64,000 bases of DNA from Uranotaenia lowii (Eukaryota > Arthropoda > Insecta > Diptera > Culicidae): the NCBI RefSeq assembly GCF_029784155.1, contig NC_073691.1:56902217-56966216 (forward strand). Direction: 5' to 3'. Both the position numbers and the translations under genes were made by a program. The notes under the pieces are model-generated. The model made no database searches, was not told the DNA's origin, and saw only the letters and a program-made list of their open reading frames with translations. Positions 12,274-49,721 of this stretch are shown here, piece by piece. Position 1 is the first letter of the stretch. Every line of letters starts with the position of its first letter.

Positions 12274-12719
12274 CCCAAGTAACACAGAGAAAGCTAACTA
12301 GCATTTCGATGCTTTATTATGGTTTTATTATGGCTTTTTTGTGCAGCTCGTTTTATGATGGTTTTATTATGGTCATGCAAAATGCTTATATTCTTGAATC
12401 GACCATCTGTTTTTAGATATAACTACTGTTATATCTATAATCTGTTTTTAGACTATAATAAAACACAAACTTAGAAGTTTGCTCCAAGCTGTCTTTTGCA
12501 TGTTTTATAATAGCACTCAGTGCCTGATTATTAAACCGCCATAAAACTTAGTGACAGTTCTCGATCAAGATGTCAAATCAGGACACGCTCAGATTAGATA
12601 GCACATAATTGAATCAGAATTCCCATTTTTACACATTTTTGATAAGTTCTGTGTGTTGATTTTGAGTTAAAATAATAAAAAATTATAAAAATCTATGAAA
12701 ACTTCGAATTACCGGAAGT

Positions 12720-13251
12720 GGAATGAATAACTCTACAATATGAGTATTGAGTGAAAGAGTTCAAATAGGAGGAACAAAATTTGTTGCTTGACGCCATCAT
12801 TAGTACAAGATGGCGGCTTCCGCTTTTATTTTCAAAGTTGTAAATAACTGAAAATATCATGAAACCTTATTAAAATTGTTATTAGGTGAAAGTAATAAAC
12901 AAGTAGAAGTCGAATTTCGTTGTCCGTCGCCATCTTAAATTCCAAGATGGCGACTACCACTCAACTTGAAAATACTGTAAATGACAGAAAATCGCCTCAA
13001 ACCCTTACAATATGGGTATTAGTTGAAAGAGATGAACCAGTAAAAGTCGAGGTTCGTTATTTGTCGCCATCCAAATTCAAGATGGCGGTTTCCACTGAAC
13101 TGCAAAATGTTGTATATGACTTATAATCGTACGAAACCTCAACAATATTGGTGTTGGGTAAAAGGGCTAAACGAGTAGTAGTCGATTTTCTCTTTCCGCT
13201 TTACTCTGAAATGCTGTAAGTGACCCAAAATCGCACAAAGCAACCACAATA
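12720..13251 (-). repeat. Satellite array, left arm of element A
   Basis: At least three diverged units of about 135 bp, oriented opposite to the right arm, each marked by CAAGATGGCG(G/A)-type sequence (about 12810, 12945 and 13078). Confidence 0.75.
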
Positions 13252-13587
13252 CAGACCCCGAGCGTTTTTGGCAACATTTGATTTTGGAAACATCCGATTT
13301 TGGCACATGTCCCTAAATCAAACAAATAACAGAAACAACATAACCTTATAGTTTTCGCTTTAATAGGACCAATACAATTTAGACATATTAGCATGATAGA
13401 CAAAATACAATGACATAAATAGCAAATGGCGAAAAACAAAAACTATCGACAAAACAAGAAAAGTGCTAAATGCATCAAAAACATGATAAAAAATGTAGTA
13501 CAAAGAAAAAACAAAGTTGAGGATAGAATCGTTCGATTTGAACAACACAAAATGTTCGAGCGGGTTGCCAAAAACAATCAGGGTCTG
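13252..13587 (+). mobile_element. Central TIR insertion of element A (core family)
   Basis: The 336-bp unit has inverted ends: CAGACCCCGAGCGTTTTTGG at the left and, as reverse complement, CAGACCCTGATTGTTTTTGG at the right. It lies exactly where the satellite changes orientation. Its interior is homologous, in reverse, to 46613-47154 (shared stretches around ATCCGATTTTGGCACATGT, GGACC..ATA.AATTTAGACAT and AAATGCATCAAAAAC). No coding capacity. No TSD could be defined. Confidence 0.78.
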
Positions 13588-14700
13588 GTTCTTCTAGTTT
13601 ATCCCTTTCAACGAATACCAATATTGTAAAGCTTTCGTGCGGTTTTTAGTCATTTGCAGAATTTTGAAGCTCAGTGGAAGCCGCCATCTTGGATTTCAAG
13701 ATGTCGTTTGATAGAAAACTTCGACTTCTACTCGTTTGGTCCTTTCACACAATGCCTATATTGTGGGAGTTTCATGCGATTTTCAGTGTTTAACAGCATT
13801 TTAAAGTTCATTGAAAGCCGCCATCTTGGATTTCGAGATGCACCTGATAGCAAAATTTGACTTCTTCTAGGTTAGCCCTTTTAGCCAATACCCATATTGT
13901 GGGTGTTTCATGCGGTTTTTTAGTTATTTACAGCATTTTAAGGATCAGCAAAAGTCGCCATCTTGGATTTCAAGAGGATCTGATAGAGAAATTCCACTTA
14001 AACTGATTAAGCCATTTTACCCAATGACCATATTGTGGGAATTTCTAGTGACTTTCAATGATTTCAATCATTTTATAGTTCAGTGGAAGCCGCAATCTTG
14101 GATTTCAAGATGACGCCTAATTGCGAAATTTGTATTCTACTCGTTGATCCTTTTCAACTTATACCCATTTTGTGGAAGTTTCATGTGATTTTCAGTGATT
14201 AACAGCATTTTAAAGTTCAGTGGAAGCTGCCATCTTGGATTTCAAGTTGACGTCCGATAGCGAAATTCGACTTCTTGTAGTTTAGCCCTTTCACCAAATA
14301 CCAATATTGTGGGCCTTCCATGCGATTCTCAGTGACTAACAGCATTTCATAGTTCAGCGGAAGACACCATCTTGGATTTCAAGATGGCGTCGAAAAGAAA
14401 AAAATCGGCTTCTTCTAGTTTAGCCCTTTCAACCAATACCCATATAGTGGTTGTCTAATGCGACTTTTGGTCATTTACAGCATTAAAAGTTCAGCGGATG
14501 CCGCCATCTTGGATTTCAAGATGGCGTCTGATAGCAAAATTCGACTTCTAATCGTTTAGCCCTTTCACCCAACACCAATATTGATGGGATTTCATGCGAT
14601 TTTAAGTCATTTACAACATTTGAACGATCAGCGAAATCCGCCATCTTGGATTTCAAGATGGCGTCAGACAACGAAATTTGACTTCAACTCATGATTTATT
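13588..14700 (+). repeat. Satellite array, right arm of element A
   Basis: About eight units of 135-140 bp. Each centres on the near-palindrome CGCCATCTTG-gattt-CAAGATGGCG (about 13681, 13820, 13957, 14090, 14230, 14366, 14503, 14642), followed by AT-rich sequence with 'ccaatacccatattgtggg'. The GCCGCCATCTTG core matches the known YY1/Pho-type binding consensus. Confidence 0.85.
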
Positions 14701-15466
14701 TCACGGGTGATTAACAACCAATCCGTTTTTATTTAAAATGTATGTCCTCATTTACTGTACTAAGGATTAACAACTCAGAAATTAGGAACTCATCCTAAGC
14801 GTGTAATTGATTGGCTTGCGAGAGAAACGTCAAATCGTAGCTTTTTTTGGGGTCATCATTAAACCATAATAAAACTATGAATTGACTCACGCCATGTTGG
14901 TTGCAAAATCGAAGGGCACAAAATGACGCCATGTTGATGGATTCACAATGCAAGCATTGGAAAATATTTTTTCAGCCCATTTTCCATCAATTCCATCATG
15001 ATTGACCATCAGATTTGACGAGGCGCATTTATTTTAAGATACTATTTCATACACATTTTACCTAAAATCTTGACTGGCAGTACAAAAGAGGCTCATAATA
15101 TGGTTAAAACATTGGTATTTTGGCTATTAATTTTACCAGATCATAAATATCTCAATAATGCAATCATCATTCATCAACCATTATGGTTGCTGGAAAAAAA
15201 AATAAAACTCCGAGAACTCACAGAATCGAAAAAAAAAAATTCCTAACATGTTTTATAATAGCTTTTTAAAAGCTTTGGTGACCAGAATTGATGACCAACA
15301 AAGATACGTCATGATGACGTTTCTAGGGTAGGGCCAAATAGCCTAAGTTTGGCTTTATTAGAGTCCAGGTGATGTTGTAGAATGCGCTTTAGCTTTTTAT
15401 GAAGATTAATGCTATAGTCCAAACGAAATTTTGCTGACCATAATAAAGCTTAAATTGTTACTTGGG

Positions 15467-16029
15467 TGTTAAGCGTGACCCCGTCAATCTTGCGGTCTTG
15501 GGACGATAGTGTTACCTGCAGAGACGTGGAAGTTGACCATTTTTCCTACTTAGTGGCGGGCGTCTTGCCAATCTCGGTTTTGTTAGAGACGGATGTCTAT
15601 TGTTACGACAATAATTACACGCCCAATGTACGAGATATCGTCAATGAAGACTTGATGTCCAATTGGCAACAGCTGTGGGACAGCTCAACAAGAGAAAGGT
15701 GGACCCACCGTGTGATCCCGCACATCGGGAGCTGGATCGGAAGAAGACACGGTGAAGTGGACTTCTATATGGTGCAATTCCTCACTTTTCATGGATGCTT
15801 TATGAAGTACCACTACCGGTTTGGACATGTGGCTTCGCCATTTTGCCCAGATTGTGGTGACGAAGAGGAAGCACCCGAACATGTAGTGTTTGCTTGTCCG
15901 AGGTTTGCGGCCGTACGTACCAACATACTTGCAGCCCATGGGCCCAACATGACAGTAGACAATATGGTGTATGGATGTGTACGCATTCCAACACTTGGAG
16001 TGCGGTCAGCGATGGGTTCACCCGGATAA
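15467..16029 (+). pseudogene. R1-clade ORF2 C-terminal domain
   Basis: An open plus frame reads YLVAGVLPISVLLE, RWTHRVIPHIGSWIGRRHGE and VQFLTFHGCFMKYHYRFGH. The zinc-finger-like CPDCGDEEEAPEHVVFACPRF follows, and the stop is at 16027. This is the conserved C-terminal region of R1-type ORF2. The part linking it to the RT at 9710-10918 is missing or replaced by inserted elements. The frame itself is well preserved, unlike the rest of the relic. Confidence 0.82.
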
Positions 16030-16129
16030 TGAATTCTCTGCAGAGGTCCTGGAGTCAAAGGCAGTCCGCGAACGGTGTAGAAGGACTCCGTCGCCGGAAA
16101 GCATCTAAGAAGTGCGCGTCCGGTCCCTT

Positions 16130-16640
16130 GATCGAAACTACGAAGATAAGGCATCATCTTCTGTGTAGTGAAGTTCATGGGTGCGCCGTGAAGTGTGTAC
16201 GATACCCCACCGCCGGGGAATATCCGAGTAGTGCCGCTTCCTACAGAGGAAACTGCAGGGATGAGACAATACCTTCCCCGTAGCGGACCTCGTAGATAGG
16301 GGTAAGTCGTAGTAGACTAACCCCATCGACGAGGAACTGTCGAGTAGAGTGCGTCCGACCCCGGTTTGAAGCTACAAAGATAAGACAACACCTTCTGCGT
16401 AGTGGATGCCGTGGACACGCCACGATCGTGCGTAGGATGCTCCACCCTCGGGGAGCAGTGCGGTTCCCAACGGCCGAAGCTGCGGGGATAAGACTTGACC
16501 TTCTTCGCAGTGGAAATCGTTGGGAAAGGGATTTTCCACGATCGGAGAATTCCCACGGGTAGATTGGCTCTCGACGCCGGTGAGCAATTCGTGTCGAAGT
16601 AGGATGACGTCTTCGTCGGGAATCATCCGAGAAGTTGCGT
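16130..16640 (+). repeat. About 115-bp tandem repeat after R1 ORF2
   Basis: Four units start near 16134, 16249, 16369 and 16477 with the block GAAGCTAC.AAGATAAGACA-CACCTTCTGCGTAGTGGA in diverged forms; a partial unit begins near 16590. Spacing is 108-120 bp. It lies where the 3' UTR of the R1-type element is expected. Confidence 0.75.
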
Positions 16641-16739
16641 AAAGTCCCGCGCGTATGTTGTGACAGGCGCGAGTTTAGGATAAGCTACTCTCGATCGGCA
16701 CACAACGGGCATAAAGGTGGCAAACCTGGAATCCTGGAG

Positions 16740-17160
16740 AATCCAGGCTTCGAGTTGTTAAAGGAGAGGTCAGACCTCGAGTCTTCAGGAGGAGAGGTTG
16801 GGGGGTCAACTCCGAGTCTTTACGACAAGAGGTCGGGTCTCGAGTTACAACAGGAGATAGCAGGCCTTTAATCAACAACAGGAGTGGTATAAGTGTTTAC
16901 CTCGAGTCATTAAGAGGGGAGGTCAGAACTCGAGTCGCTACAGGAGAGATCGGGCCTTGAGTCGTACAAAGAGAGATATGTGTAAGTCAACCTCGAATCG
17001 ATGCTAGGAAGGGTCTGATCTTGAGTCGTGAGAGGAGAAATCAAGCCTCGAGTCACGAAAAGGAGGGGTTTTTGTAGGAACCTCGAGTCATTGCAAGGAG
17101 ATGTCGTTTCTCAAATCGTTAGAGGAGAGTTCATACTTCGAGTCGTAATGATCAGACGTA
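16740..17160 (+). repeat. About 33-bp minisatellite after R1 ORF2
   Basis: Around ten diverged copies of a unit like CTCGAGTCGTTA-AGGAGAGGTC (examples near 16748, 16778, 16843, 16909, 16930, 16954, 17020, 17047, 17080 and 17137). GC content and position tie it to the same R1-type 3' region as the 115-bp repeat before it. Confidence 0.75.
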
Positions 17161-17450
17161 TTCCTGAAAGTGGTCTCGTCTATGAGTATTGCCTTGGAGC
17201 ACATTAACGCGAATAGACCTCCCATTGTTGAAGGACAGTGTGTTTAACAGTTCGAGGTGGGAACTAGGTCTGCATCCCCAGGTGTAGGTTAGGGAGTAGG
17301 AGGTATCCAAGGGGTATATCACGAGTCTTTCCTTAGTACCCATTGACCCAGAGTAGCAAACTGGAGTACGCGGTGGCTCGCCGTGGCTTGGAGTACAGCC
17401 CGTAAACCCTGATTTAGCAACTAATAAAAAGGGTTGCACTCAAGCGAGCT
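17161..17450 (+). mobile_element. Terminal part of the R1-type 3' region
   Basis: 17210-17425 is repeated as reverse complement at 8646-8815. It marks the end of the GC-rich R1-type relic; no coding frame is conserved between the two copies. Confidence 0.55.
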
Positions 17451-17662
17451 GGGCTTGTGTTATAGCTCAGTTGGCAAGTCAGTTGCAAATATTTTTTGTA
17501 TGGTTTCGATTATAGTCGTTTTAACATCTTTGTGTCATTCGCGACTTATAGCAACTATGCAGTTGGCGGACAGTCATTGAAAAACTTATCCGGTAAAATG
17601 TTTTGGGCTCGAACTCACGGACATCAACTAAGGAGGCAACTGACTGGCTAACTGAGTGATAT
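17451..17662 (-). mobile_element. tRNA-derived SINE, head-to-tail inverted pair
   Basis: 17451-17483 is the SINE head in plus orientation (GGGCTTGTGTTATAGCTCAG). From about 17502 to 17662 a nearly complete copy runs on the minus strand, with tail, B box (reverse complement of GGCTCGAACTC at 17606-17616) and A-box region. The head and the longer copy face opposite ways, so this is an inverted insertion or rearrangement. Confidence 0.75.
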
Positions 17663-20089
17663 TAAAAAAAAGTAGTATGTACAAGTCCAGTTCCCAAAAA
17701 CGCCTTTCTCAAAATCAAAGTTATATGTATCTACATGTGTTCTTGTTCAAAAATTCAAATTCATAAACCATCATTATCAAATTTAAAAATCATAGATTGA
17801 TTTCCTAAAAAAAAACCTCTCCGAAAAAAGCAACCAAAGCGAGTGGCATCTGATTTCAACCCGACTGTCTAATCCTTCCGTGATCAAAGCCCGTTTGCTC
17901 GATTATTATGATTCGAACAAACTTGAAGGAATCATAACGGCAAAGGCATAGAACAGAAGGCTCAAATATTCAAGCTCCTTCCAAAGCTAAATCTGTTCCT
18001 TCTTTGGACCGTGATTGCCCGATTCCGTCGTTTTTCCTTTCGAGCAACCTAATGCCTTACCAAAAGAGCAAAAAATATAGAAATCTAACCGGTTGCATAC
18101 AAACCGACCAACCGAGCGAGCGACGGCAATTTTGCGGATCAACTTCGTGGGTGAGGGTGGGTGGGTGTTCTGCTGAGAGCGATTCCATTGCTCGTCGAAG
18201 GATTCTTCAAACACAACCCTCCTCGATGAAGGACGATGGTTGCAAGCAAAAGGGAAGAATGGTGTTCAATCCGGATGCATGGCTGGAAAAATAGCAGCAG
18301 GAAAAACTGCTCCCCAGTATACATGAAAGAGAATAAATTTCCATTAGCTTTACTCACTTTACACCTTGTCATATCACACTCAAATCGTCATCATCATCGT
18401 CGTTGTCTTTCGGCTTACCTGAGCTGGCATGCTCCTGTTCGAAAGTTTCAATTGGGCTGTGGCCCAAGGGTAACTGAACCATTTTTCGAATCAGTCGATA
18501 TCTTTTGATTAAGAAATAGTGAAAAAATCCTTTGTCAGTAAGTTTACCCTATATTTTTTGTAACAAATCCACAAACATAGAAAGACCACCCAAGAATTAA
18601 GTCGAAGAAGGATTTTTGAGGGGAGAGCGTTCAACATTTCAGCAAAAGATTGATTCGATTTGATTGGACTGTGTTGATTGTTTGGAGTTGAATGTAGGTG
18701 TTTTGTTTCGTTTTTGCTCTGGTCCTTCTGGTGTTGTTGTTTTGAAAACTGATGATCCTTTCCGGTCCTAAGGCCTTAAGGATGAGTTTCAACTATAATT
18801 GAAAATTGCCGCTGATAGCTGGTTTGAGTGTGCACTTTTTGCCTGTTTCAAATACGAGCAACCATCATTTGATTGTAATCACTCCGGATGAGGGGTTTTT
18901 AAGGCAAACTTACATATATTGCGTTCAAACTACCGGTTTAAGAGTTTCAGCACTTGAAGACCCAACACCAATTTTAGTTTAACTTTGGCCCAAAATTAAA
19001 AAAAAATGAAACAACAGGTCTCGCATCTCATATTGCAGTAACAAAAGGACCGATTTTTGAAAATTTCGCATCATTTATTTTTTCGGAATCTCATTATTTT
19101 GTCATGCAAAACATTTTTGTAAAAGCTCTAAAAATGAAGAGCATACTCGGTTGCAAGTGCATTGCAATAGAATATTTTTCGGTTTTCATGTTCAAAGAAA
19201 CATTGTTTTTTAAATTATTTAATATTTTGTTTCGAAGAAAGGATGAAATTGTTAATTACTCGTATATATTAGGGTGACTCTAATTTTAAATATTTTTTTA
19301 AGGTTTCCAACCCTCAATCATAATCCATTCAAAAGCTTTGACACGAATGCCAAAACGTTGGTAAAGTGTCATAAATCAACAAAAAAAAAATAATCCATTC
19401 AATAATAAAACAAAATTGGCAAAAGTCTACAAGCTCATTCGAATATCTCTAGGACGCCGGGTAATAAGCTTGGGTATGAAACTTTGGATGGAAAAAACGA
19501 TAGTTTAAAAAAATGTATTGTGGCAACACTGTAGAATTAAAAATTGTTTTGTACTGTAAATGTTTTAAGGAAAAGCACGTGGAAAAAAACAAGAAAGAAT
19601 CACAGCTATTCTGAATTGTTTGCTCACTTCGAAATTTGTTCTTGTGTTATTGTTAAATCTTTTTGAACTTGAACTTTGAACTAAACGTCAACAGTGGTGC
19701 GAAGTATCAAATATAACTGTTGATTGAACATTTTAGAATTTAATTTTCCATTAAGTATTGAAATGTTTTCAATGTAAAACTGCGGTGAAAATATTATAAA
19801 CCATCTCTGCCTTTTTTTTCCTTAAACCGTGGCTTGATTGTTATCGGAAGAAAATGTTCCAATAACAGTTGGATTATGAAGTCCATGTTATGATTAAAAA
19901 AATAAAAATCAGTTATAAGAAAAAGGACAAAAAATTCTTCTTTAACAGAAAATTTAAGCTGATTAAACATTTTAAAACATTCCATCCTCCAGATTTAAAG
20001 CGGGAAAACGTTAATTTGTCAGTCTCTAAACTTCAAATCTTGCGAATAAATGTTACTTATTCTGAAAAATTTGTATTTCATTTAATTTT
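17663..20089. other. AT-rich intergenic DNA
   Basis: No gene or element was recognised in these 2.4 kb. ORFs of up to 96 residues around 18000-18500 show no domain, signal peptide or splice pattern and overlap on both strands. Nothing further can be supported. Confidence 0.45.
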
Positions 20090-21535
20090 TTAATTTTTGT
20101 CATTTTTCGAGAATTTGTTTTTTATTTTGTAATATTTTTTTAAATTCTATTATTTTTCTTATATTTGTAACTTTTAAAATATTTTGATTTCTGTCATTAA
20201 TTTTAAATTTTGTGATTTCTGTAATTTTTGGCATTTTTTTCATTTTTGTCATTTTTGTAATTTTTGTAATTTCTGTAATTTTTGTCATTTTTGTCATTTT
20301 TGTCATTTTTGTCATTTTTGTCATTTTTGTCATTTTTGTCATTTTTGTCATTTTTGTCATTTTTGTCATTTTTGTCATTTTTGTCATTTTTGTCATTTTT
20401 GTCATTTTTGTCGTTTTTGTCATTTTTGTCATTTTTGTCATTTTTGTCGTTTTTGTCATTTTTGTCATTTTTGTCATTTTTGTCATTTTTGTCATTTTTG
20501 TCATTTTTGTCATTTTTGTCATTTTTGTCATTTTTGTCATTTTTGTCATTTTTGTCATTTTTGTCATTTTTGTCATTTTTGTCATTTTTGTCATTTTTGT
20601 CATTTTTGTCATTTTTGTCATTTTTGTCATTTTTGTCATTTTTGTCATTTTTGTTATTTTTGTCATTTTTGAAATTTTTGTCATTTTTGTCATTTTTGTC
20701 ATTTTAGTTTTTATTTGTAATTTTTGTCATTTTTGTCATTTTTGTCATTTCTGTCATTTCTGTCATTTTTGTCATTTTTGTCATTTTTGTCATTTTTGTC
20801 ATTTTTGTCATTTTTGTCATTTTTGTCATTTTTGTCATTTTTGTCATTTTTGTCATTTTTGTCATTTTTGTCATTTTTGTCATTTTTGTCATTTTTGTCA
20901 TTTTTGTCATTTTTGTCATTTTTGTCATTTTTGTCATTTTTATCATTTTTGTCATTTTTGTCATTTTTGTCATTTTTGTCATTTTTGTTATTTTTGTCAT
21001 TTGTGTCATTTTTGTCATTTTTTTCATTTTTGTCATTTTTGTCATTTTTGTCATTTTTGTCATTTTTGTCATTTTTGTCATTTTTGTCATTTTTGTCATT
21101 TTTGTCATTTTTGTCATTTTTGTCATTTTTGTCATTTTTGTCATTTTTGTCATTTTTGTCATTTTTGTCATTTTTGTCATTTTTGTCATTTTTGTCATTT
21201 TTGTCATTTTTGTCATTTTTGTCATTTTTGTCATTTTTGTCATTTTTGTCATTTTTGTCATTTTTGTCATTTTTGTCATTTTTGTCATTTTTGTCATTTT
21301 TGTCATTTTTGTCATTTTTGTCATTTTTGTCATTTTTGTCATTTTTGTCATTTTTGTCATTTTTGTCATTTTTGTCATTTTTGTCATTTTTGTCATTTTT
21401 GTCATTTTTGTCATTTTTGTCATTTTTGTCATTTTTGTCATTTTTGTCATTTTTGTCATTTTTGTCATTTTTGTCATTTTTGTCATTTTTGTCATTTTTG
21501 TCATTTTTGTCATTTTTGTCATTTTTGTCTGTTTT
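20090..21535. repeat. Large 9-bp tandem array (GTCATTTTT)n
   Basis: Near-perfect units run from about 20271 to 20699 and, after a short break with TTTAGTTTTTATTTGTAA, from about 20722 to 21529: roughly 135 copies in all, with a degenerate fringe from 20090. The few variants are mostly GTCGTTTTT, GTTATTTTT and ATCATTTTT. Because 9 is a multiple of 3, long repetitive ORFs appear in most frames of both strands (FVI, HFC, SFL, MTK, DKN); none is a gene. Confidence 0.97.
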
Positions 21536-21628
21536 ATGTATTTTTATTTTTAACTTGAACTGTGTGATTTGATATAAAAAAAAATTTTGCAAATTCAAGT
21601 TTTTATGTGATTCGGAAAGTGATGTGAT

Positions 21629-21981
21629 CAAGGTTGCCGAAATCACAGAAAAATCTGTAATTTCACTGAGTTTTGAGCAAATTTTCAGCACAGAATCTGT
21701 GCTAGACAAGACAGAATATTGGGAATATTCACAGATAGCACAGCTTTTTGATTTTTTTTGTATTTTAAAAAATATAATAATATAAACTGTGAAGTTTTTC
21801 GCTATTCATTGAAATCGGATTGTTAGTTTTAATTGATTTTTTCAATTAAAATGTAAAAAAAATCCAATAAGTTATGACTTTTCAAACAAATTGAGGATTT
21901 TTCCATCACAGAATTGCTTGGTTAAATCACAAAATTCAGATTTTTCTTCGCAAAAACACAGAATTTTTTTCAGCAACCTTG
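21629..21981. mobile_element. hAT-type MITE with CAAGGTTGC ends
   Basis: Terminal repeats are CAAGGTTGCCGAAATC and, as reverse complement, CAAGGTTGCTGAAAAA. The 8-bp flanks gatgtgat (21621-21628) and gttgtgat (21982-21989) differ by one base. At 353 bp and without an ORF it is non-autonomous. The inside repeats 'cacagaa' motifs on both arms. Its ends resemble those of the MITE at 4242-5012. Confidence 0.8.
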
Positions 21982-21989
21982 GTTGTGAT

Positions 21990-23116: not shown

Positions 23117-23375
23117 CCACAGAGAACAGACAGCCCACGAAATATGTGTAAAATTTCAAACGATCATTTTGAACCAATTTTTCGTTTTTAGGCTGGGCCA
23201 CCAGATGTCTCCAAACACACCGAAGAGAACTGTCAAAACCAATCTGAGAAAAAAAACAAAATTTTGGTCAGTTTTGAACAGCTCGTATGAACTGTTTGGC
23301 ATGTTTCAAGAAAATAGCTTTTAAAGTTTCGTAACACTTTCGTCCGGTTGCATAATTGAAAAATATCTTAATTGC

Positions 23376-23449
23376 ATCAAAGCAATCGAAAGATTCCTTT
23401 TAATTCAACCACGTGGTTGAATTAAAAGGAATCTTTCGATTGCTTTGAT
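23376..23449. repeat. Perfect 74-bp palindrome
   Basis: Two 37-bp arms meet without spacer at CCAC|GTGG (between 23412 and 23413), and every base pairs. A perfect spacerless palindrome of this length can extrude as a cruciform and is normally unstable, so it is recent or maintained. Confidence 0.95.
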
Positions 23450-23814
23450 TCATTTGAATCATTCAACCAAGTAGGCTCATACCACAACAGAGATCTTAAT
23501 TGCTTTTTCCTTCAAGCTAGAAGCGGTAAATTTTGAACAATGAGATACAAAAGTAATACTTGAGAGTAACCCGCTTCGAGATGTCTAGAATCAGTTCTTA
23601 TGGGTAAGACTGGTCGTCAAGAATGTTCGTAATTAACTTGATATAGCCGATTCGTCCTCTGACGATAACCTCTCAAGAAGTGCTATAACTTATTGTTAAA
23701 CTGTTAGTTATTTCGACTGCCTCAGTATTGCAAAAATAAAGGAATTAATAAAAGTGTATCACCGGGTAATACTTATGTTTTTTTTGGAAGAGAAACATTT
23801 TTTTTTATTTTTAA

Positions 23815-24879: not shown

Positions 24880-26189
24880 AAGGGTGATACGGTCAAAATT
24901 TGGTCAAGGGAAAACGCGTGTAAATCGGTGAAATCGATTATTTAAAAAATCAAATTAAGTTTCTTTTAAATTTGTATAAAATTCAGAAAAAATATTCAGT
25001 TAGGCTTCCGCTTTTCCAAATCCGAATTGCCGGGCCTTACGCTTTACGCCTTACGGGCCCTGCCATCCGATTTTGTACAGCCACTTGGTCCATCTTCTTC
25101 GCCGCAGAAAACCAGTTTGCCTTGAATTATATAACTGCTGCTCGTCCTTAGCAGTTTTTTGTTTTTCTTTAGGTGCCGCTTGACAATAGCCCAGTATTTC
25201 TCAATTGGGCGGAGCTCTGGCGTGTTGGGAGGGTTCTTGTCCTTGGGAACCACCTGCACGTTGTTGGCGGCGTACCACTCCATGGCCTTTTTACCGTAAT
25301 GGCAAGATGCCAAATCCGGCCAAAACAGTACGGAACAACCGTGTTTCTTCAGGAAAGGCAGCAGACGTTTATTCAAACACTCTTTCACGTAAATTTCTTG
25401 GTTGACAGTCCCGAAAGCTATGAAAATGCTGCTTTTCAAGCCACAGGTACAGATGGCTTGCCAAACCAGATATTTCTTTGCGAACTTTGACAGTTTCGTG
25501 TGCTTGAAAATATCTTCTACCTTTCCCCTTCCTTTTGCCGTATAAAACTCCTGTCTCGGAAGCTGCTTGTAGCCGGCTTTGACGTAGGTTTCGTCGTCCA
25601 TTACCACGCAGTCAAACTTCGTCAGCATCGTCGTGTACAGCCTCCGGGATCGCGGTTTGGCCGTCGTTTTTTGTTTATCATCGCGATTTGGAGTCACTAC
25701 CTTCTTGTAAGTCGATAGTCCGGCTCGTTTTTTGGGTCGATGCACGGTTGTAGACGATACACCCAGCTTATTTGCAGCATCTTGGAGAGAGAGGTTAGGG
25801 TTTCGCTTGAAACTACCGGCAATTCTCTACGTCGTCTCAGCGGCTTCCGGTTTTCGTTTTCCCCCCGATCCAGACTTCCTGGCTGTCGACAAACGTTCCC
25901 CAAACACTTTAATTACATTTGTATCGGTTGATTTGGCAACTTTTAGCGATTTTGCCAGCTTTGCGTGCGAGTAGCTCGGATTTTCGCGATGCGCGAGCCA
26001 AATTTTGATACGCTGCTCTTCTTCCTTGGACGGCATTTTGACAACTGAAGAGGGAATTCCAAAATCAAAATAGGAGCAACATTTAACACACAAACGCCGT
26101 CAAAATGAGGGGTGTTCAGGTTTTTTTAATGCAAAATTGATAGAAATACGTCATGTTGATATTGACCAAGTTTTAACCGTATCACCCTT
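24880..26189 (-). mobile_element. Tc1/mariner element, ITmDD37E type, copy 2
   Basis: Ends match copy 1: AAGGGTGATACGGTCAAAAT at the left, and AAGGGTGATACGGTTAAAAC (two mismatches) at the right as reverse complement. TA flanks lie at 24878-24879 and 26190-26191. Length is 1310 bp, with the transposase pseudogene on the minus strand. Confidence 0.93.
25000..26036 (-). pseudogene. DD37E transposase pseudogene, copy 2
   Basis: The frame starts MPSKEEEQR at 26036 and runs through the helix-turn-helix region to a TAG after PEAAETT near 25827. It continues open through the catalytic residues (VMDDETYVK, FWPDLASCHY, LRPIEKYWA; 37 residues between the second Asp and the Glu). A frameshift near 25160, in an A-rich Lys stretch after KRHLKK, garbles the end, and the normal C-terminus (GKAEA, stop at 25000-25002) lies in another frame. 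All three catalytic acids are still present, so only two lesions inactivate it. Confidence 0.9.
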
Positions 26190-34262: not shown

Positions 34263-34263
34263 T

Positions 34264-34379: not shown

Positions 34380-34406
34380 ATCGATTTTAATTTTACATGC
34401 GATGAT

Positions 34407-38045: not shown

Positions 38046-38195
38046 AACGTGAATAACTTTTGAATACGCAAAAAGAGGCAACTAGTTTTTGTTTTGTTGG
38101 ATATTGTGCAGACCTGTCCGGAGCTCCGAAGCTCGGTAGTAGCACCAGGGGGACCACCGGATCACTAACTGCAGCGGAAACTGCACGCACTACTC

Positions 38196-40327
38196 GGCTT
38201 GCTCGTTTGCTCACCGACCGACCGACTGACTCCCCGCACGCTTATGTGGGATGACGCGGTATGCGTTTAACCCATTCACGACTCACACAGAGGGAATGTA
38301 TGATATACGCATACATCCATTCGTGCGCCACACATCTCCCTTTTTCTCAGAAGAAAAACTGTTCTTACAAGTTTTGTTTGAAAAAAAAATCGTTAAACCA
38401 TATTAACTCTATTGAATTATCACTCTTTCTCTTTTCCACCGACTATTTGAAGCCTGATTAATTCTGCCATTAACAACTGGTTGACGCTGCGTGTCAAGTA
38501 GTTTAACTGAGAATCGCCTATGCTCTCTTCATTCACTGAACAGAACTTAATGATGACTGCAACAAATATTTCTCCAAAGCTTCATTTGATACGAAAGTGA
38601 AGTTGTGTGTGCAGTGTAGCAATTTTTTTGCTTGAAGGGATAATCTTTGCAACACGATCGTTCAATTTGCAAGTCATCTTATCTCCTATTTTTACTCTCA
38701 GCTTCTTCTCGTCCCTTCCTCAACTTAAATTTTTGCCTCTTCTCATCAACTTACCTTAAACTTACCTTTTTTTCATTTTGTTATCTTTCTATCTTATAAT
38801 GTTCTACTTGTTTTGACTTTTATGTTTTACTGTCCTCTTCATTGATTTTATTATCTTATTGTTCAACTTATTCTTCTAGTAATTATTTCATTTTCGAAAC
38901 TTGTTGCGTTCTGGTATTCACCATTTATTTTCATTTATTAATCTTCTAATCAACTTAATTTCTCATCATATCTACTTCTTATCTTTCAATAATCTCTTTT
39001 ACTCATAGCTCCCACACAATTTGCTATCTTTCTACCAAAACATCTTCTCCTCCTTTCATCTTTCTAGTTTCTTATCTTCCAACCGTCTCACAACTCTATC
39101 ATCTTCCATTCTTCTCATCGTCCGATTACCCTAAAACGCGTGCATCGGCTGCTGTCTCAGCTCGCCTTTTTCCAATACAGCTGTCCTCTCAATACTATTT
39201 TTATTTTTCGATCCTTCCAACCGACAATTCATAGGTTGTCCAATCATCTCAACTTGTAATAAAATACAACTGTTTTTTAAATACGCTGTTTTTATTTCGC
39301 GGTCCTTAAAACTGACTATTCATAGGCTGTCCTCTCAACTCGCCATTATTTCAATACAGCTGTCCTTTCAACACGCTGTTCTACTTTGTGGTTCTCTCAA
39401 CTCGCAAGCATAGGATATCCTCTCAACTCGCCTTCTAATTTCAAGCTGTCCTCTCAACTCGCTTGAAATTTTTATCGATACGTTCAGGCTGTCCTCTCAA
39501 CTCGCCTGTAAATTTCATTACAGCTGTCCTCTCAACACACTGTTCTTACTTTGCGGTCCTCTCAACTCGCCTTAAAATTTGAATACAGCTGTCCTCTCAA
39601 CACGCTGTTCTTACTTTGCGGTCCTCTCAACTCGCAAGCATAGGCTGTCCTCTCAACTCGCCTTTATATTTCAATACAGCTGTCCTCTCAACACGCTGTT
39701 CTTACTTTGCGTTCCTCTCAACTCGCAAGCATAGGCTGTCCTCTCAACTCGCCTTCTAAATTCAAGCTGTCCTCTCAACTTGCTTGATTTTTTTTATCGA
39801 TACGTTCAGGCTGTCCTCTCAACTCGCCTTCCAATTTCAAGCTGTCCTCTCAACCCGCTTGAAATTGTGAACATTATCAAGCTTTCCTCACGACTCGCTT
39901 AAAATTTCATTTTTATTTAATGTTGTCTTCTCAATGAAATTGGATTCATCAATTCCAGTTTCGGCATTGTTTCATAACCCGCACATGTCAAAAAACTCTT
40001 TAAACAATATGTAAATATGGCACGTTTTCTTTCCTTTTCACTTCAATCTAGGTAGCCTCCGAAAGTAACTAACAGCGGTGCTTTTTTTGTTTCAACAACT
40101 TTACATATACCTAATGAGTATTCGAATTACTCATTTTGCCACAGTTTATTTTCGATGGGTAATTAATAAACTGTTTGATTTTCAAGCAGGCTTGCTCGTT
40201 TGCTCACCGACCGACCGACTGACTCCCCGCACGCTTATGTGGGATGACGCGGTATGCGTTTAACCCATTCACGACTCACACAGAGGGAATGTATGATATA
40301 CGCATACATCCATTCGTGCGCCACACA
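38196..40327. mobile_element. Unit bounded by identical 139-bp direct repeats
   Basis: 38196-38334 and 40189-40327 appear identical (starting GGCTTGCTCGTTTGCTCACC). The 1.85 kb between them is strongly pyrimidine-rich on the plus strand and contains a minisatellite. This could be a small LTR-type element without coding sequence (TRIM-like) or a duplication. Against an LTR element: no TG...CA ends with a short TSD and no primer-binding site were found. Confidence 0.5.
38620..39920. repeat. Pyrimidine-rich minisatellite, core CTGTCCTCTCAACTCGC
   Basis: From about 39140 to 39900 the core CTGTCCTCTCAACTCGC, or its variant ending CACGC with GTTCTTACTTTGCGG, recurs about 20 times at 20-45 bp spacing. 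From 38640 to 39140 only diverged CTTCTC/TCAACTT-like copies are visible. The plus strand is C/T-rich throughout. No ORF is maintained. Confidence 0.85.
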
Positions 40328-41590
40328 GATATCTGAGACTTCCATTTAAATGTTCGAGTAGAAATGAGAGTGGGGTAACCAGGCGGCGGCAACGCTATTC
40401 AAACCGTATGGAGCACATCTCTCAGATTTCCCCTTTTTTTCCCCTCGTTTTGACAGATTTAAGCTTTCGTCTCCTATGCTCTCAAGGCAAAAAAAGCTTA
40501 AATCTGAGGAAAAAAAGCTTAAAAACGAGATTCACGAGCACATATTTAAAAGATGTCACACGATACATAGACAAATCGTGTAACGTTGCAGGGATTTGGG
40601 GGTAACGTGGGGTAACATGTTTTCCAGATGTCCCAATATGATGAAAATTCGTAATTTTTTAACGTTGTACGTTTATGCTCGTAAAAAAATTAAGATTTTT
40701 TTTCAATTCTTCAACCTCAAATAAATTAACTTCATGTTATTTTGAACACATCCATGTAAATTTTTTTTTATTTCATCAAGAAATAAAATTTTAGTGGAGT
40801 ATTGAAAATATTTTTTTTGTTTTTGCGATAAAATGCAACAGCATCAAGCCCCAACTTCACCTACGTAGATAATTGTATGAAACAACGAAATTTAAATTTT
40901 GTTTGACAGATTTGTCATCGGTGTAATGTCCAGTTTCTGAAAAGCATAAATTAAAGATGAATTATTGAAATTTTCAAAAAGGGGTTTTGGCCAAGCTTTC
41001 ATAGGTCCTGCCCCATTGTGCGGCGACGGCAAGCAGCAGAATATGCTTATTGCCACACACCAACTGCGGTGGAAAAAAAAATGCGGCGAGAAATAATTTA
41101 TTTTATTCATTTAATTTCATTCGAAATTTCAATTTATTTTTCAAAAAAAATTTAATTCCTTTCGAAACCGTGTCAAAATTTTAAAAATTTTGAGTTGTTT
41201 TGGCTCAGGCCGTTCAGACGCTCTTTGAAAATGCCTGATTGAAAACAACTCAGAATTCGCGAAAACCCCTACTATTCATTTCTGAGTTGTGCCGTCTTAA
41301 TCAAAATTTGGGTTTTCCCAGTTTTGGCGCATTTTGAATTGTTTTCCTTCAAATCTGAGTCAAGGAGAATTAGAGTGTGTGCTAATCGGCGGAAAAAAAG
41401 ATATTCAATTTTTTTCCTTAATTTTTGTTGATTAGTTCATGGATTTTTGTCAAATTTTCCCGAATATTGACCAAATTTTGGTTTGAAAATTTGTAAATCG
41501 AATGTCCGAATTTTACCAGGTTTTTAAATAAAATGGCCCGAATTTGCTCGGCCCAGATACGTGCGGGAGAACTTCAGGCAATCTTAAGCT
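40328..41590. other. AT-rich non-coding DNA
   Basis: Small inverted repeats only: CAGATTTAAGCTT with its complement within 40450-40510, and the GAGTTGTTTT pair near 41190-41255. No gene seen. Confidence 0.45.
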
Positions 41591-42149
41591 CAGAGATGTT
41601 AAAATCGCGAGTCTTCATACTCGCACTTTGCCCTTCTTTGCAGAACGATTTTATTTCGTTAAACTCAAACTGCAATGATGCTATCGATAGTTCAATTCGG
41701 AAAGCATCAGGAAGGAAGCTTCGGGTAAACTCGGCAGGAGTAAACAGCAATCGGGGGAAACATCAGCGAAACGAACGTACAGTTCTGAAAAAATCGTTTT
41801 CGTTCGGCAGCCGAACACATCAATCGGACAACGCATGGGGGCGTGGCTAAAAGTGATGAATACAAGGGAACGGGAAACAAGCGAAAGAAGGGTGCGAGGA
41901 ATGTTAACTCGGTCCGTCGGGCAACGATCGCTCGTGTGCATTCGTGTACGGTCAGCTTCGTTCTGTTGTTTCGTTGTTGTGATTTTATTCCTGCGAGGCA
42001 TGGAAAACATCAATGCAAAACTTTTTTCTTCGTTTTGTGCACATTGATGTGATGATTGGAACGAAGATAAAATCAATCTGCAAATAGAAAGTTAAACTCG
42101 GAAGAAATCAGCCGAATGATTCTTTCCGAGGCGAGTTTACGCATCTCTG
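41591..42149. mobile_element. hAT-type MITE with perfect 8-bp TSD
   Basis: CTTAAGCT is duplicated at 41583-41590 and 42150-42157. The ends are CAGAGATG in inverted orientation, followed on both sides by partly similar sequence with CTCGC. At 559 bp it is GC-richer than its surroundings; the 105- and 131-residue ORFs on opposite strands are incidental. Confidence 0.85.
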
Positions 42150-42157
42150 CTTAAGCT

Positions 42158-44177
42158 AAGTTCACCAGATTTTGATGCAAACTTGAGATTTCAACCATCG
42201 ATAAAAGTAAGTTTCTTATTTTGTTACTAAAGGATTCTTTCTACAAATCCTAATCATTATTTGAATGATTTTGGGATATGTTTTCAAAAGATTATATTTG
42301 ACTTGAAAAACTATTCATGTGAAAGAATTTTAAAATGATTAATCAAATAATATTTAATAATAATAATTTTAATTTTTTTATCCACGCATTGTTTGAGCAA
42401 AAATGTCATAGAAAAAATAGGTCACCAAAAATCCTGGCATGATTCAGTTCTTCCTTAGGTCATGCCTCAGTGTAAACTTGAAAATCGTAATAAAAGTATT
42501 TTTTTTATAAGGAAGAAATAAAATCACTGATAAAATGAATGAGGAATGATACACTTTAACAAGTTCGATCAATTTGTATTAAATAAAATTTTATTATGAA
42601 AAAAATAGATTCCTGTTCACTTACCTGTTTATCCGAATCCATTTCAAGTCGCATGGGGGATGGGAGGAGAAAAAAGAGAAAATTAAGGTTAGACACAAAC
42701 TCCATATGGAAACGAGTAGCATTGAATGTTTAGTTGTGGTAAACGAATGGATCAATTAGAAGTAATTTACAGTCTATTCTCTTTACATGTCGATGTCAAA
42801 TATGAACATATTTAAAGGTGGCTGGAAATTGGATTTTGTCGAATTTTGCAAACTGATCAGAAACATTTTGTGGATTGGCCCCAAAACCATGACCTGTGAA
42901 AAATTTCAGCAAAATCGTACTTGATTTAGGGCTGCGGAAAGGAAATCCGGAAAATCGATACATATTTTAATTTTGAGGCCAAATGACTTTTGATTTTCCG
43001 GATTTCTTTTCCCCCTGTTGATTTTTAAGGGTAAAAAAACCGAAACCTTGAGCACTTTGAGGCACCCCTGAATCAAGTCCGATTAAGCTCAAATTTTGCA
43101 CAGGTCAGTTTTCTGGGTCAATCTAAAAAATCTACATGGTCGGTTTTCAAAAGTCGATCAAGAAATTTTTCCCATACATCTACTGCCACCCTAATAAACA
43201 TATATAAATTTATCTCATTGATTGCGATTATTATCTGGACTCCTGTGGATTCCTGGGGCGATAAAAAGGACGACATATGTCGTGAGAATTATCCTGACTG
43301 AACTGTCTCCCGGAAATGGCCATGCGTTTTGTCTCTGTTCCATATGTCAAAACAAATCGTATCGTCGTTTGCCCCTGTCGGAGGACATTCCGACATATGT
43401 GTGTAAATGTGTTTAGGTCCGATTGTTTGTTTGTGCGATATCCCAGCGAGCGAATCGGTCTATGAACACATCACTAGGGGGTCTGTACTCTGGTTTGGTT
43501 TGAACGACCATCCCTAGATAGGTTTTCAAAAGGCCTCCAGTGAAAAATGTTTATTGAAAGGAATTTGAATCAGTGTTATTTTTCGCTTGAAATTAAATTA
43601 CCATCATCACATTTCAAAGAGTCCTTCATTCCGTCTTAGAATCCGGACCATCTCAAGTAGAAATGGAAAATGGCCACAATGGGAACGAAAGTTAGTGGGA
43701 AATGTCATCTTGGACAACAAACCGGGAAACACGTTCTCAATCGACAGCACGTGCCCCCCCTCATTGCAACATTCGGAAGGCAGGCAACAAGGGGTCAAGC
43801 TGGCGGATGATTTATATGCAGATAGCAACTGCAGGAACAGATATGCCACTACATACTGTTGCTGGTTTAGGTTTTTTTTTCTGTTTCCTGAATCAGCTTC
43901 CCAGAAACTGACCCACCACACCGGTGGATATTCCAGATGCTTTCTGGAGCTTCTTTCAGTTACAAATAAACATCACAAGCATAAAAATGGCAGCTGTTGT
44001 GCAGTGTATCCAGATTGAAGATTTTCTTCCGGAAACAAGATTTTCAATCCGGGTTCCAATATCTGCATTCGGAATTTCATGGTTCACCAGTTTTGTATAA
44101 CAATTCAGAGCTCTGATAATAAAACTTCATTACTTTTTTTTTCTTTCAAATATTTGGCAACCCGGACGTGTTATTCG
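42158..44177. other. Non-coding DNA, diffuse repeat remnants
   Basis: 42820-43195 resembles a short repeat (GGTGGC start, internal AAATCCGGAAAATC and its complement, CTGCCACCC end) related to sequence near 22200. The 143-residue ORF at 43587-44018 has no recognisable domain or splice context. Confidence 0.4.
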
Positions 44178-44534
44178 CTAGCGGACAGGGATTGAAATGC
44201 TCTTGCTCAAGCGGCTGAGCATCAATGCTCTTGAAGCTCGAGAGCGAAGAAAGCTGGAGCCAATTCTAGCCCAACAATAAATGCTCAAATTAAGCTCATA
44301 CCTCTTCGGGCTCTAGGAGACAAGGTTTTGCATTTTGCTTTGAGTTTGTTAGCTCAAGGAGCCGAAATTTCTTGAGCTTGCTGGCTCAGCAAAATTGTAA
44401 CACTTGAGCTTAGTGATGTGTATTGACTTTGCCATTGTAGTGCAGTGTGAGCCAACGGCGTTTTTTTGTGCACCAGAAACTGTGAAAGTGGTTGTTGGGA
44501 TTATTAACATGAATGTAAAAGATTTCTTGTAACT

Positions 44535-46605
44535 GGTAAAAGTTACCAGCACTAGTAACTATGAAATAGTAAAATTTACAATTTTTCGGGAAAAACGCGA
44601 AATGAAAGGGCTTTTTGCGAGGATTATTAAAATCAATGTTAGAGAGTTCTAGTAACTAGTTAAAGTTACCAGCACTAGTAACTATGAAATAGTAAAATTT
44701 ACAATTTTTCGGGAAAAACGCCAAATGAAAGGGCTTTTTGCGAGGATTATTAAAATCAATGTTAGAGAGTTCTAGTTACAAGTAAAAGTTACCAGCACTA
44801 GTAACTATGAAATAGTAAAATTTACAATTTTTCGGGAAAAACGCCAAATGAAAGGGCTTGTTGCGAGGATTATAAAAATCAATGTTAGAGAGTTCTAGTA
44901 ACTAGTTAAAGTTACCAGCACTAGTAACTATGAAATAGTAAAATTTACAATTTTTCGGGAAAAACGCCAAATGAAAGGGCTTGTTGCGAGGATTATAAAA
45001 ATCAATGTTAGAGAGTTCTAGTAACTAGTTAAAGTTACCAGCACTAGTAAGTATGAAATAGTAAAATTTACATTTTTTCGGGAAAAACGCGAAATGAAAG
45101 GGCATTTTGCGAAGATTATAAAAATCAATATTAGAGAGTTCTAGTTACTAGTAAAAGTTACCAGCACTAGTAACTATGAAATAGTAAAAACTAAAATTTT
45201 TCGGAAAAAACTCCAAATGAAAGGGATTATAAAAATCAATGTTAGAGAGTTCTAGTAACTAGTTAAAGTTACCAGCACTAGTAACTATGAAATAGTAAAA
45301 TTTACAATTTTTCGGGAAAAACGCCAAATGAAAGGGCTTTTTGCGAGGATTATAAAAATCAATGTTAGAGAGTTCTAGTAACTAGTTAAAGTTACCAGCA
45401 CTAGTAAGTATGATATAGTAAAATTTACATTTTTTCGGGAAAAACGCGAAATGAAAGGGCATTTTGCGAAGATTATAAAAATCAATATTAGAGAGTTCTA
45501 GTTACTAGTAAAAGTTACCAGCACTAGTAACTATGAAATAGTAAAAACTAAAATTTTTCGGAAAAAACTCCAAATGAAAGGGCTTGTTGCGAGGATTATA
45601 AAAATCAATGTTAGAGAGTTCTAGTAACTAGTTAAAGTTACCAGCACTAGTAACTATGAAATAGTAAAATTTACAATTTTTCGGGAAAAACGCCAAATGA
45701 AAGGGCTTTTTGCGAGGATTATTAAAATCAATGTTAGAGAGTTCTAGTTACTAGTAAAAGTTACCAGCATTAGTAACTATAAAATAGTAAAATTTACAAT
45801 TTTTCGGGAAAAACGCGAAATGAAAGGGCTTTTTGCGAGGATTATTAAAATCAATGTTAGAGAGTTCTAGTAACTAGTTAAAGTTACCAGCACTAGTAAC
45901 TATGAAAAAGTACAATTTTTCGGGAAAAACGCCAAATGAAAGGGCTTTTTGCGAGGATTATAAAAATCAATATTAGAGAGTTCTAGTTACTAGTAAAAGT
46001 TACCAGCACTAGTAGCTATGAAATAGTAAAAATTAAAATTTTTCGGAAAAAACTCCAAATAAAAGGGCTTGATGCGAGGATTATAAAAATCAATGTTAGA
46101 GAGTTCTAGTAACTAGTTAAAGTTACCAGCACTAGTAACTATGAAATAGTAAAATTTACAATTTTTCGGGAAAAACGCTAAATGAAAGGGCTTTTTGCGA
46201 GGATAATCAAAATCAATGTTAGAGAGTTCTAGTTACTAGTAAAAGTTACCAGCACTAGTAACTATGAAATAGTGAAATTTCAAAATTTTCGGGAAAAACG
46301 CCAAATGAAAGGGCTTGTTGCGAGGATTATTAAAATCAATGTTAGAGAGTTCTAGTTACTAGTAAAAGTTACCAGCATTAGTAACTATAAAATAGTAAAA
46401 TTTACAATTTTTCGGGAAAAACGCGAAATGAAAGGGCTTTTTGCGAGGATTATTAAAATCAATGTTAGAGAGTTCTAGTAACTAGTTAAAGTTACCAGCA
46501 CTAGTAAGTATGAAATAGTAAAATTTACATTTTTTCGGGAAAAACGCAAAATGAAAGGGCATTTTGCGAAGATTATACAAATCAATGTTAATGTGTTAAA
46601 ATTTT
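44535..46605 (+). repeat. Satellite array, left arm of element B
   Basis: About 17 units of 118-122 bp, each with GTTACCAGCACTAGTAACTA, TTTTTCGGGAAAAACGC, AAATGAAAGGGCTTTTTGCG and AATCAATGTTAGAGAGTTCT. Variants (CTAACT for CTAGTT, AAACTCC for AAACGCC, a deletion near 45220) recur in groups, suggesting expansion of multi-unit blocks. Confidence 0.95.
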
Positions 46606-46612
46606 TTAAGTA

Positions 46613-47154
46613 CAGACCCCGTTCGTTTTTGGCAACATGCCCGAACATTTTGTGTTGCCAAAATCGAACGGTTTTTTTTTTTCTGAAACCTTTTTCTCTT
46701 ATTTTTTTAAAATAACTATTTTGATTATCATTAACGTTATTTTAAGTCAATTTCCGACCGTTTTTAGATTTTTTAAAAGTTTTTTTCTCAGGTTTTTGAT
46801 GCATTTTACACTACTTTTTTTTTGTTTATAATCTTTGTTTTTTTTAACATTTTTGCTGTTTTCGTCATTCTTTATCATTTTTAAGATGATTTTGTCATTT
46901 TTAGTCTTTTGTTTGTATTTGTTTTTGAATTTTTAAAAATTTTCAGGTTTTTGTAATTTTTGAGTACTTTACATGTACTTGTACATGTAAATGTGTATGT
47001 ACATTTCGTTATTGTATTCTATCACCATTTCTGAATGTCTAAATTATATGGGTCCTGTTATAGAGAAAACTAAAAGGCAATGTCGCTTCTAAAAACCGTT
47101 CGATTTTGGCACATGTGCCAAAATCGGATGTTGCCAAAATCGAATGTTGCCAAA
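46613..47154 (-). mobile_element. Central TIR insertion of element B (core family)
   Basis: The left end CAGACCCCGTTCGTTTTTGG matches the right end of the 336-bp unit in element A, and the whole is its reverse-orientation relative. The other end stops at ATGTTGCCAAAA without the CAGACCC terminus, so it is truncated. It lies exactly where the satellite reverses direction. The interior is T-rich with GTCATTTTT-like stretches (about 46865-46910). Confidence 0.78.
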
Positions 47155-49420
47155 ATTTTACTATTTCATAGTTACTAGTGCTGGTAACTTTTACTAGTTA
47201 CTAGAACTCTCTAACATTGATTTTTATAATCCTCGCAACAAGCCCTTTCATTTGGCGTTTTTCCCGAAAAATTGTAAATTTTACTATTTCATAGTTACTA
47301 GTGCTGGTAACTTTTACTAGTTACTAGAACTCTCTAACATTGATTTTTATAATCCCTTTCATTTGGAGTTTTTTCCGAAAAATTTTAGTTTTTACTATTT
47401 CATAGTTACTAGTGCTGGTAACTTTAACTAGTTACTAGAACTCTCTAACATTGATTTTTATAATCCTCGCAACAAGCCCTTTCATTTGGAGTTTTTTCCG
47501 AAAAATTTTAGTTTTTACTATTTCATAGTTACTAGTGCTGGTAACTTTTACTAGTAACTAGAACTCTCTAACATTGATTTTAATAATCCTCGCAAAAAGC
47601 CCTTTCATTTGGCGTTTTTCCCGAAAAATTGTAAATTTTACTATTTCATAGTTACTAGTGCTGGTAACTTTTACTAGTTACTAGAACTCTCTAACATTGA
47701 TTTTAATTATCCTCGCAAAAAGCCCTTTCATTTGGCGTTTTTCCCGAAAAATTGTAAATTTTACTATTTCATAGTTACTAGTGCTGGTAACTTTTACTAG
47801 TTACTAGAACTCTCTAACATTGATTTTAATAATCCTCGCAAAAAGCCCTTTCATTTGGCGTTTTTCCCGAAAAATTGTAAATTTTACTATTTCATAGTTA
47901 CTAGTGCTGGTAACTTTTACTAGTTACTAGAACTCTCTAACATTGATTTTTATAATCCTCGCAACAAGCCCTTTCATTTGGAGTTTTTTCCGAAAAATTT
48001 TAGTTTTTACTATTTCATAGTTACTAGTGCTGGTAACTTTTACTAGTAACTAGAACTCTCTAATATTGATTTTTATAATCCTCGCAAAAAGCCCTTTCAT
48101 TTGGCGTTTTTCCCGAAAAATTGTAAATTTTACTATTTTATAGTTACTAATGCTGGTAACTTTTACTAGTAACTAGAACTCTCTAACATTGATTTTAATA
48201 ATCCTCGCAACAAGCCCTTTCATTTGGCGTTTTTCCCGAAAAATTGTAAATTTTACTATTTCATAGTTACTAGTGCTGGTAACTTTTACTAGTTACTAGA
48301 ACTCTCTAACATTGATTTTAATAATCCTCGCAAAAAGCCCTTTCATTTGGCGTTTTTCCCGAAAAATTGTAAATTTTACTATTTCATAGTTACTAGTGCT
48401 GGTAACTTTTACTAGTTACTAGAACTCTCTAACATTGATTTTAATAATCCTCGCAAAAAGCCCTTTCATTTGGCGTTTTTCCCGAAAAATTGTAAATTTT
48501 ACTTTTCATAGTAACTAGTGCTGGTAACTTTAACTAGTTACTAAATCTCTCTGATATTGATTTTAATTATCCTCACAACAAGCCCTTTCATTTGGCGTTT
48601 TTCCCAAAAATTTGTAAATTTTACTATTTCATAGTTACTAGTGCTGGTAACTTTTACTAGTTACTAGAAATCTTTAACATTGATTTTAATTATCCTCGCA
48701 AAAAGCCCTTTCATTTGGCGTTTTTCCCGAAAAATTGTAAATTTTACTATTTCATAGTTACTAGTGCTGGTAACTTTTACTAGTAACTAGAACTCTCTAA
48801 CATTGATTTTAATAATCCTCGCAACAAGCTCTTTCATTTGGCGTTTTTCCCGAAAAATTGTAAATTTTACTATTTCATAGTTACTAGTGCTGGTAACTTT
48901 TACTAGTTACTAGAAATCTTTAACATTGATTTTAATTATCCTCGCAAAAAGCCCTTTCATTTGGCGTTTTTCCCGAAAAATTGTAAATTTTACTATTTCA
49001 TAGTTACTAGTGCTGGTAACTTTTACTAGTAACTAGAACTCTCTAACATTGATTTTAATAATCCTCGCAACAAGCTCTTTCATTTGGCGTTTTTCCCGAA
49101 AAATTGTAAATTTTACTATTTCATAGTTACTAGTGCTGGTAACTTTAACTAGTAACTAGAACTCTCTAACATTGATTTTAATTATCCTCGCAACAAGCTC
49201 TTTCATTTGGCGTTTTTCCCGAAAAATTGTAAATTTTACTATTTCATAGTTACTAGTGCTGGTAACTTTTACTAGTAACTAGATTTCTCTAATATTGATT
49301 TTAATAATCCTCCCAAAAAGCCCTTTCATTTCGCGTTTTTCCGTTACTAGTGCTGGTAACTTTTACTAATTACTAAAACCGTCCAACATTTATTTCAAAA
49401 ATCCATGCGACAAGCCCTTT
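47155..49420 (-). repeat. Satellite array, right arm of element B
   Basis: About 19 units, the reverse complement of the left-arm unit, spacing 118-123 bp. Units near 48500 and 49350 are more diverged. Pairing with the left arm would form a stem of about 2 kb around a loop of about 0.55 kb. Confidence 0.95.
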
Positions 49421-49721
49421 CATTAGTTACTTCACTTGTGCACAAAAAAGCAGGCGTTGGCTCGAACAGCAGCAGTGAAAACAAGCTCAACGATTTTGAA
49501 TCGGTTGAGCCAACAAGCTCAAGCTCCTCTGGAGGCATGAGCTAACGGGCTCACGAGGGAAAAAAAGAGCTAAGGTTTCTTCCAAATAAGAGCTTAGCTA
49601 TACGAAGCTCCGGAGACAAAAACGATAGGAGCTTCGTCGATTGCTTTGTAAGCGGAGCTATGGAAATAAAGAGCTATGAAGCTCGCTCAAATGAGCTTCA
49701 TTTTCAATCCCTGCTAGCGGA

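Follow-up and report, generated by a model that had tools for sequence, protein, structure and literature searches.

The centres of two mirror-image satellite elements

Two unrelated satellite-bearing elements lie in one stretch of the genome of the mosquito Uranotaenia lowii, and at the point where the tandem array of each changes direction they carry homologous repeats. How did the same repeat come to lie at both? The stretch analyzed (the window) comprises 64,000 nt and contains the two elements, A and B, which appear to share one plan: an end, a tandem array, a centre, the reversed array, and an end. The initial annotation described these elements with their ends, arrays and reversals, and all are present as described (Table 1). 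It also proposed that the central pieces, here called cores, either start palindrome formation or prefer palindrome centres as targets. We favor a different explanation, with a probability of about 0.7. On this view the core is a miniature inverted-repeat transposable element (MITE) nested in two unrelated non-autonomous foldback-type families; it would have entered an already existing dyad in B, and probably came to lie in A by the same nesting, followed by loss of a TA.

The two cores are homologous and in opposite orientation, as had been noted. Identity is 80–84% over three aligned pieces: A15–163 with B reversed (80%), A276–336 with B1–61 (84%), and a 62-bp middle piece (81%). The satellite units, first given as about 138 and 120 bp, measure approximately 137 bp in A and 123 bp in B. 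The cores had also been placed at the exact dyad. Both do lie where the array flips, but neither mirror is exact. In A the left core junction falls at position 29 of the satellite unit, the right junction coincides with position 1 (nhmmer), and the arms are unequal in length, while in B a spacer of about 20 bp, identified by eye, separates the left array from the core. No further core copies were found in the window, either with the terminal inverted repeat (TIR) at up to 6 mismatches or by blastn at E 1e-3, leaving aside matches to a 9-bp repeat.

A common repeat that inserts at TA

We searched the genome (1.08 Gb in 2,009 contigs) for the core. The exact TIR end occurs 1,798 times, compared with 0 for the backwards control. 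TA precedes 1,699 of these ends, and 19 are preceded by TTTAAGTA, the B site. The core is 336 bp long in A, and 553–571 bp are matched in copies of 83–85% identity. Both cores have TIRs that align, lack any open reading frame (ORF) of 120 aa or more, and fold better than shuffled sequence (z −3.3 and −6.0). For the B core, 40 of 3,427 candidates were scored and the flanks of 30 of the 39 non-window copies were read; the nine left out comprise four of the 95–96% identity group and five of the 88–89% group. All 15 copies in the 83–85% subgroup are free-standing: none lies in satellite A or B, and each has TA at either end. A second sample consisted of ten of the first 100 listed places, chosen since both TIRs are present. 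Nine of the pairs are spaced by at most 750 bp and one by 1,334 bp; another pair of the closer spacing was left out. TA is found on both sides in eight of these, and the flanks resemble neither satellite in nine. The remaining one (L105/L106) is bordered by satellite B to its left and by core interior to its right, and is a B-family copy with extra core sequence adjoining.

The core is short and non-coding, has TIRs and is flanked by a TA duplication, and by these sequence features it would be a common non-autonomous MITE whose target, like that of Tc1/mariner-type elements, is TA. Most copies in the samples read (15/15 of one subgroup and 9/10 of another) appear to lie in DNA without an orientation switch, an outcome that the initial annotation had named as telling against its proposal. 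The absence of a dyad in these copies rests on lack of similarity to satellites A and B, since the flanks examined are 90 bp and too short to reveal every dyad. A test for inverted homology between the 90-bp flanks was rejected as proof that a dyad is absent, as it failed its own positive control, L051 (18.5 vs up to 22.5 in shuffles). The window copy of A passed this test (20 vs 13), and a free-standing copy in a simple repeat, L061, also scored above its shuffles.

Several further observations concern the core. One copy (L056) is nested in a second member of its own MITE family and has TA at either end, and two (L061 and L077) lie in simple or 9-bp repeats. The 9-bp repeat TTTTGTCAT forms arrays in the window at 20208–21529 (147 copies) and 6465–6569 (12 copies). 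Positions 46782–46962, inside the B core, are approximately 72% similar to this repeat, and L077 sits in a similar 9-bp array. In public collections the core TIR pattern has no match among viral contigs; its single match among genome contigs, one isolated end in bacterial sequence, was taken as chance. The satellite B pattern likewise has no match in public viral contigs.

Order of events in element B

B may be assigned to hAT-like transposons on the basis of its ends and an 8-bp target site duplication (TSD), the length expected of hAT elements, which was checked on the window copy. The outer domains are inverted-homologous (local score 52 vs at most 35 in 200 shuffles) and far more diverged than the array monomers. 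Long inverted tandem-repeat arms and inverted outer domains around a middle domain give B the plan of a foldback element.

Sixteen copies of the B family were read, window included, and they show three states at one site. In six (L051, L081, L083, L085, L087 and L089) an intact core, bounded by TA at either end, is flanked by direct satellite and the spacer on the left and by inverted satellite on the right. Four (L052, L055, L091 and L093) have AAGTA to the left of the core and CA to its right, and their left TIR is partly missing. In the remaining six (the window copy, L049, L050, L057, L095 and L097) the right core end is lost. The window core is truncated inside its right TIR and is about 15 bp short compared with the A core and intact relatives; on comparison of these states the truncation appears to be derived.

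Because the intact core has TA on both sides across the flip, the flanks of B must have been joined at that TA before insertion, and the TA duplication thus suggests that array reversal predates the core. An array already reversed at insertion contradicts the proposal that the core started the palindrome of B.

We also compared 17 full monomers from each arm, dropping three partial ones. Identity is 94.0% between arms, compared with 93.3% and 95.0% within arms. In the monomer tree the arms are mixed in two of the three starred clades, one identical set occurs in both arms, and a subtype with a 12-bp deletion is likewise present in both. The mixed clades and shared subtypes indicate that the arms share or exchange monomers, as expected for a foldback element with homogenised arrays. 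We also looked for a mirror order of monomers as a record of a single fold-back, but by eye there is no consistent order, only shared subtypes.

The locus L049 (C1:56756648–56758388) is a copy of the B centre corresponding to window positions 46013–47754, with a core 99.8% identical and like flanks. It lies 191 kb from the window copy in opposite orientation, and represents either a recent inverted duplication or a false assembly duplication.

Order of events in element A

Of 2,547 candidates in the search with the A core, the top 40 were scored, window copy included; these are the most similar copies and not a random sample. The other 39 loci were fetched with 3-kb flanks. In all 40 the core is 95–100% identical over its full length, and matches to the A end and array pieces occur in every one of the 39 fetched loci. 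Of the 39, 36 yielded both outer ends, and each of these copies has a 2-bp duplication just outside the TIR (36/36); the window copy is flanked by TG/TG. The left terminus has 89 exact matches in the genome. The core junctions are identical in 40/40 copies, with TA before CAGACCC (or variants) and GT after GGGTCTG. Because these junctions are the same throughout and the copies have 2-bp TSDs, the mirror and its core count as one origin. The mirror moves with the core as one unit, and the family represents one founding event. Both A and B were spread by transposition, so the two cases amount to two founding events.

By its inverted arrays A is a candidate foldback element. Inverted homology of the outer domains was sought but not found beyond the TIR and a 21-bp match (score 36 vs at most 52 in shuffles).

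Two A copies, L028 (C1:50220998–50227333) and L029 (C1:49835880–49842215), have both 15-bp flanks in common. They lie approximately 385 kb apart in opposite orientation, with lengths of 3,637 and 2,683 bp, and reflect a duplicated locus or an assembly duplication.

The initial annotation's idea of a core that starts the palindrome, contradicted in B, meets a different pattern in A, with TA on one side of the core and GT on the other in every copy. The left junction is a TA within the satellite, and the right junction is another phase of the satellite, reversed and without TA. This leaves either an ordinary insertion with TA loss on one side, or a reversal of the array at the core end after insertion. 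In an array that had kept its direction, TATGGGTATTG would be the continuation of satellite A past the core end GGGTCTG.

The second of these histories is possible but clearly the less probable. The core would have inserted at a TA in a direct array, which was then reversed at the right end of the core by fold-back copying or one-ended transposition. Such a history would suit a left junction at a TA inside the satellite and a right junction that starts another phase without TA at the last base of the core (40/40), and the self-folding of the cores is in its favor. The A flank CACAATA also precedes 502 of the 1,798 core TIR ends, where about 2 would be expected for independent insertions, and these ends could be cores in satellite A arrays. 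However, in B the flip predates the core, and losing a 2-bp TA would be the simpler event. A symmetric snap-back at the core TIRs was also considered and rejected in its simple form, as the satellite phases at the two ends of the A core differ and the B truncation is derived.

The CACAATA-flanked ends are probably one large amplified lineage related to the A core. Among the first hundred listed places, an opposite TIR lies within 750 bp in 0 of 30 CACAATA-flanked ends compared with 20 of 70 others (Fisher p 0.0006). The GAGCG end of A was seen by eye in only 7 of 100 listed CACAATA places. In most of these 100, GTTCG or another sequence takes its place in the TIR; the first places listed are C1:5465679 and C1:5468113.

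Why the core lies at two dyads

On the explanation that we favor, nesting of a MITE in two foldback-type families, the core would be a third element, a very common MITE that entered B by ordinary transposition and landed in its short centre after the array had reversed, and B would then have spread with the core as a passenger. In A the same nesting would have happened once, and the TA was probably lost later on one side. The dyad is probably a place where an insert spares the ends needed for transposition, and where it probably also escapes loss or multiplication by exchange between array units. Both families could then have carried the passenger to many places.

Several points weigh against this account. 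TA is absent to the right of the A core in 40/40 copies. Strict patterns for an empty A site and for an empty B site each gave 0 hits in the genome. Up to 502 CACAATA-flanked TIR ends lie outside the copies read and could show another history for A. Finally, the reason given for the dyad being hit in two families is our inference.

It seems unlikely that the transposase of the MITE instead prefers to insert at palindrome centres, such as hairpins or cruciforms. Such a preference would produce founding insertions at the dyads of two unrelated families and the position of both window copies, and the single event in B is compatible with insertion at the centre of a palindrome. However, 15/15 and 9/10 sampled copies have flanks unlike either satellite, and since the founders were multiplied by transposition the number of independent cases is about two. 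We are similarly doubtful of a broader proposal, that the MITE family has in the centres of satellite foldbacks both a recurrent landing place and a vehicle, with the dyad as a reusable safe site, and that in the A lineage the MITE end became the reversal point. It is highly improbable that the inverted structures are assembly artefacts: the near-identical neighbor of the B core 191 kb away in opposite orientation and the shared flanks of L028 and L029 mean that some false duplication may exist, but 39 other places show the A structure and its junctions, 36 of them with TSDs, and all 15 other B-family places read show the B dyad, so these are not local accidents of assembly.

Other features of the window

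The coordinates of both elements are collected in Table 1. A gene at 5897–7362 has exons that match the Uranotaenia lowii protein P0001 without mismatch except at exon edges. Three related stretches (3588–4241, 25440–26095 and 51859–52512) share 95% identity, and an ORF at 51553–52518 has helix-turn-helix matches typical of Tc1/Tc3-like transposases. An irregular cluster at 39143–39833 contains 13 copies of the motif GTCCTCTCAACTCGC and nested 65- and 91-bp repeats. Another small repeat, at 21638–21984, has inverted ends AAGGTTGCCGAAAT ... CAGCAACCTTGG, identified by eye. A scan of the window at Rfam gathering thresholds gave 0 matches.

Table 1. Components of elements A and B, in window coordinates (TRF, Tandem Repeats Finder)
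Feature	Coordinates	Strand	Basis
Element A, transposon with TIR CCCAAGTAACA, opposed inner satellite arrays and core between	12274..15466	+	2-bp TSD in 36/36 family copies with both ends
Left satellite array of A (reversed; ~137-bp unit)	12702..13251	-	nhmmer hits on - strand; TRF
A core copy, putative MITE with both TIRs; TA left, GT right	13252..13587	+	TIR search; junctions in 40 copies
A right satellite array, forward	13588..14689	+	TRF; nhmmer
Left copy of B 8-bp TSD CTAGCGGA	44178..44185	+	
Element B, hAT-like transposon of foldback plan, ends CAGGGATTG	44186..49713	+	ends, 8-bp TSD, inverted-homologous outer domains
B left satellite array, 123 bp unit	44498..46590	+	TRF
Short spacer at B centre, ends in TA where core sits	46591..46612	+	by eye; same spacer in B-family relatives
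B core copy, orientation opposite to A core, right end truncated	46613..47154	-	alignment to A core and intact relatives
B right satellite array, reversed	47155..49424	-	
Right copy of B 8-bp TSD CTAGCGGA	49714..49721	+	

Comparison with known foldback elements

Foldback elements with another transposon at their centre have a reported precedent in the FB elements of Drosophila melanogaster, which are said to carry the NOF or HB transposon in the loop. In the literature searched, judged from listings and a few passages, we recognised no paper describing the present family.

Three published elements resemble A and B in plan, each cited here for part of its description. Tetris, a foldback transposon of Drosophila virilis, has inverted ends composed of a flanking domain and ~220-bp tandem repeats, with a variable middle domain (PMC4079207). 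It is like B in its long inverted ends with tandem repeats around a middle domain, and like A in the inverted repeats; its sequence and host are different, and the portion of the paper on which we draw mentions no middle MITE common to unrelated families (PMC4079207). Galileo, a P superfamily element of Drosophila, similarly has tandem repeats in its arms, and these expand and contract inside long TIRs (PMC3573991). Galileo differs in being a transposase-bearing family (PMC3573991). B has an 8-bp hAT-like TSD and A a 2-bp TSD. The hAT-derived MITE gadMor-hAT-1784 of Atlantic cod is, like B, a non-autonomous hAT-type element, and shares inverted tandem repeats (units of 167–169 bp) with A and B (PMC12368964). 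It differs in sequence, and no nested TA-type MITE at the centre is mentioned in the part of that account cited here (PMC12368964).

Foldback elements with tandem-repeat arms are thus already in print, and what we describe is a mosquito case in which the order of events can be read for one family. It suggests how the middle domain of such a mirror-like satellite element can arise: a widespread MITE inserts there in the ordinary manner and is carried along afterwards. In B, the TA at either end of the core, with the array reversing between them, would give the order mirror first and passenger second, and the A lineage is a possible case of the opposite order.

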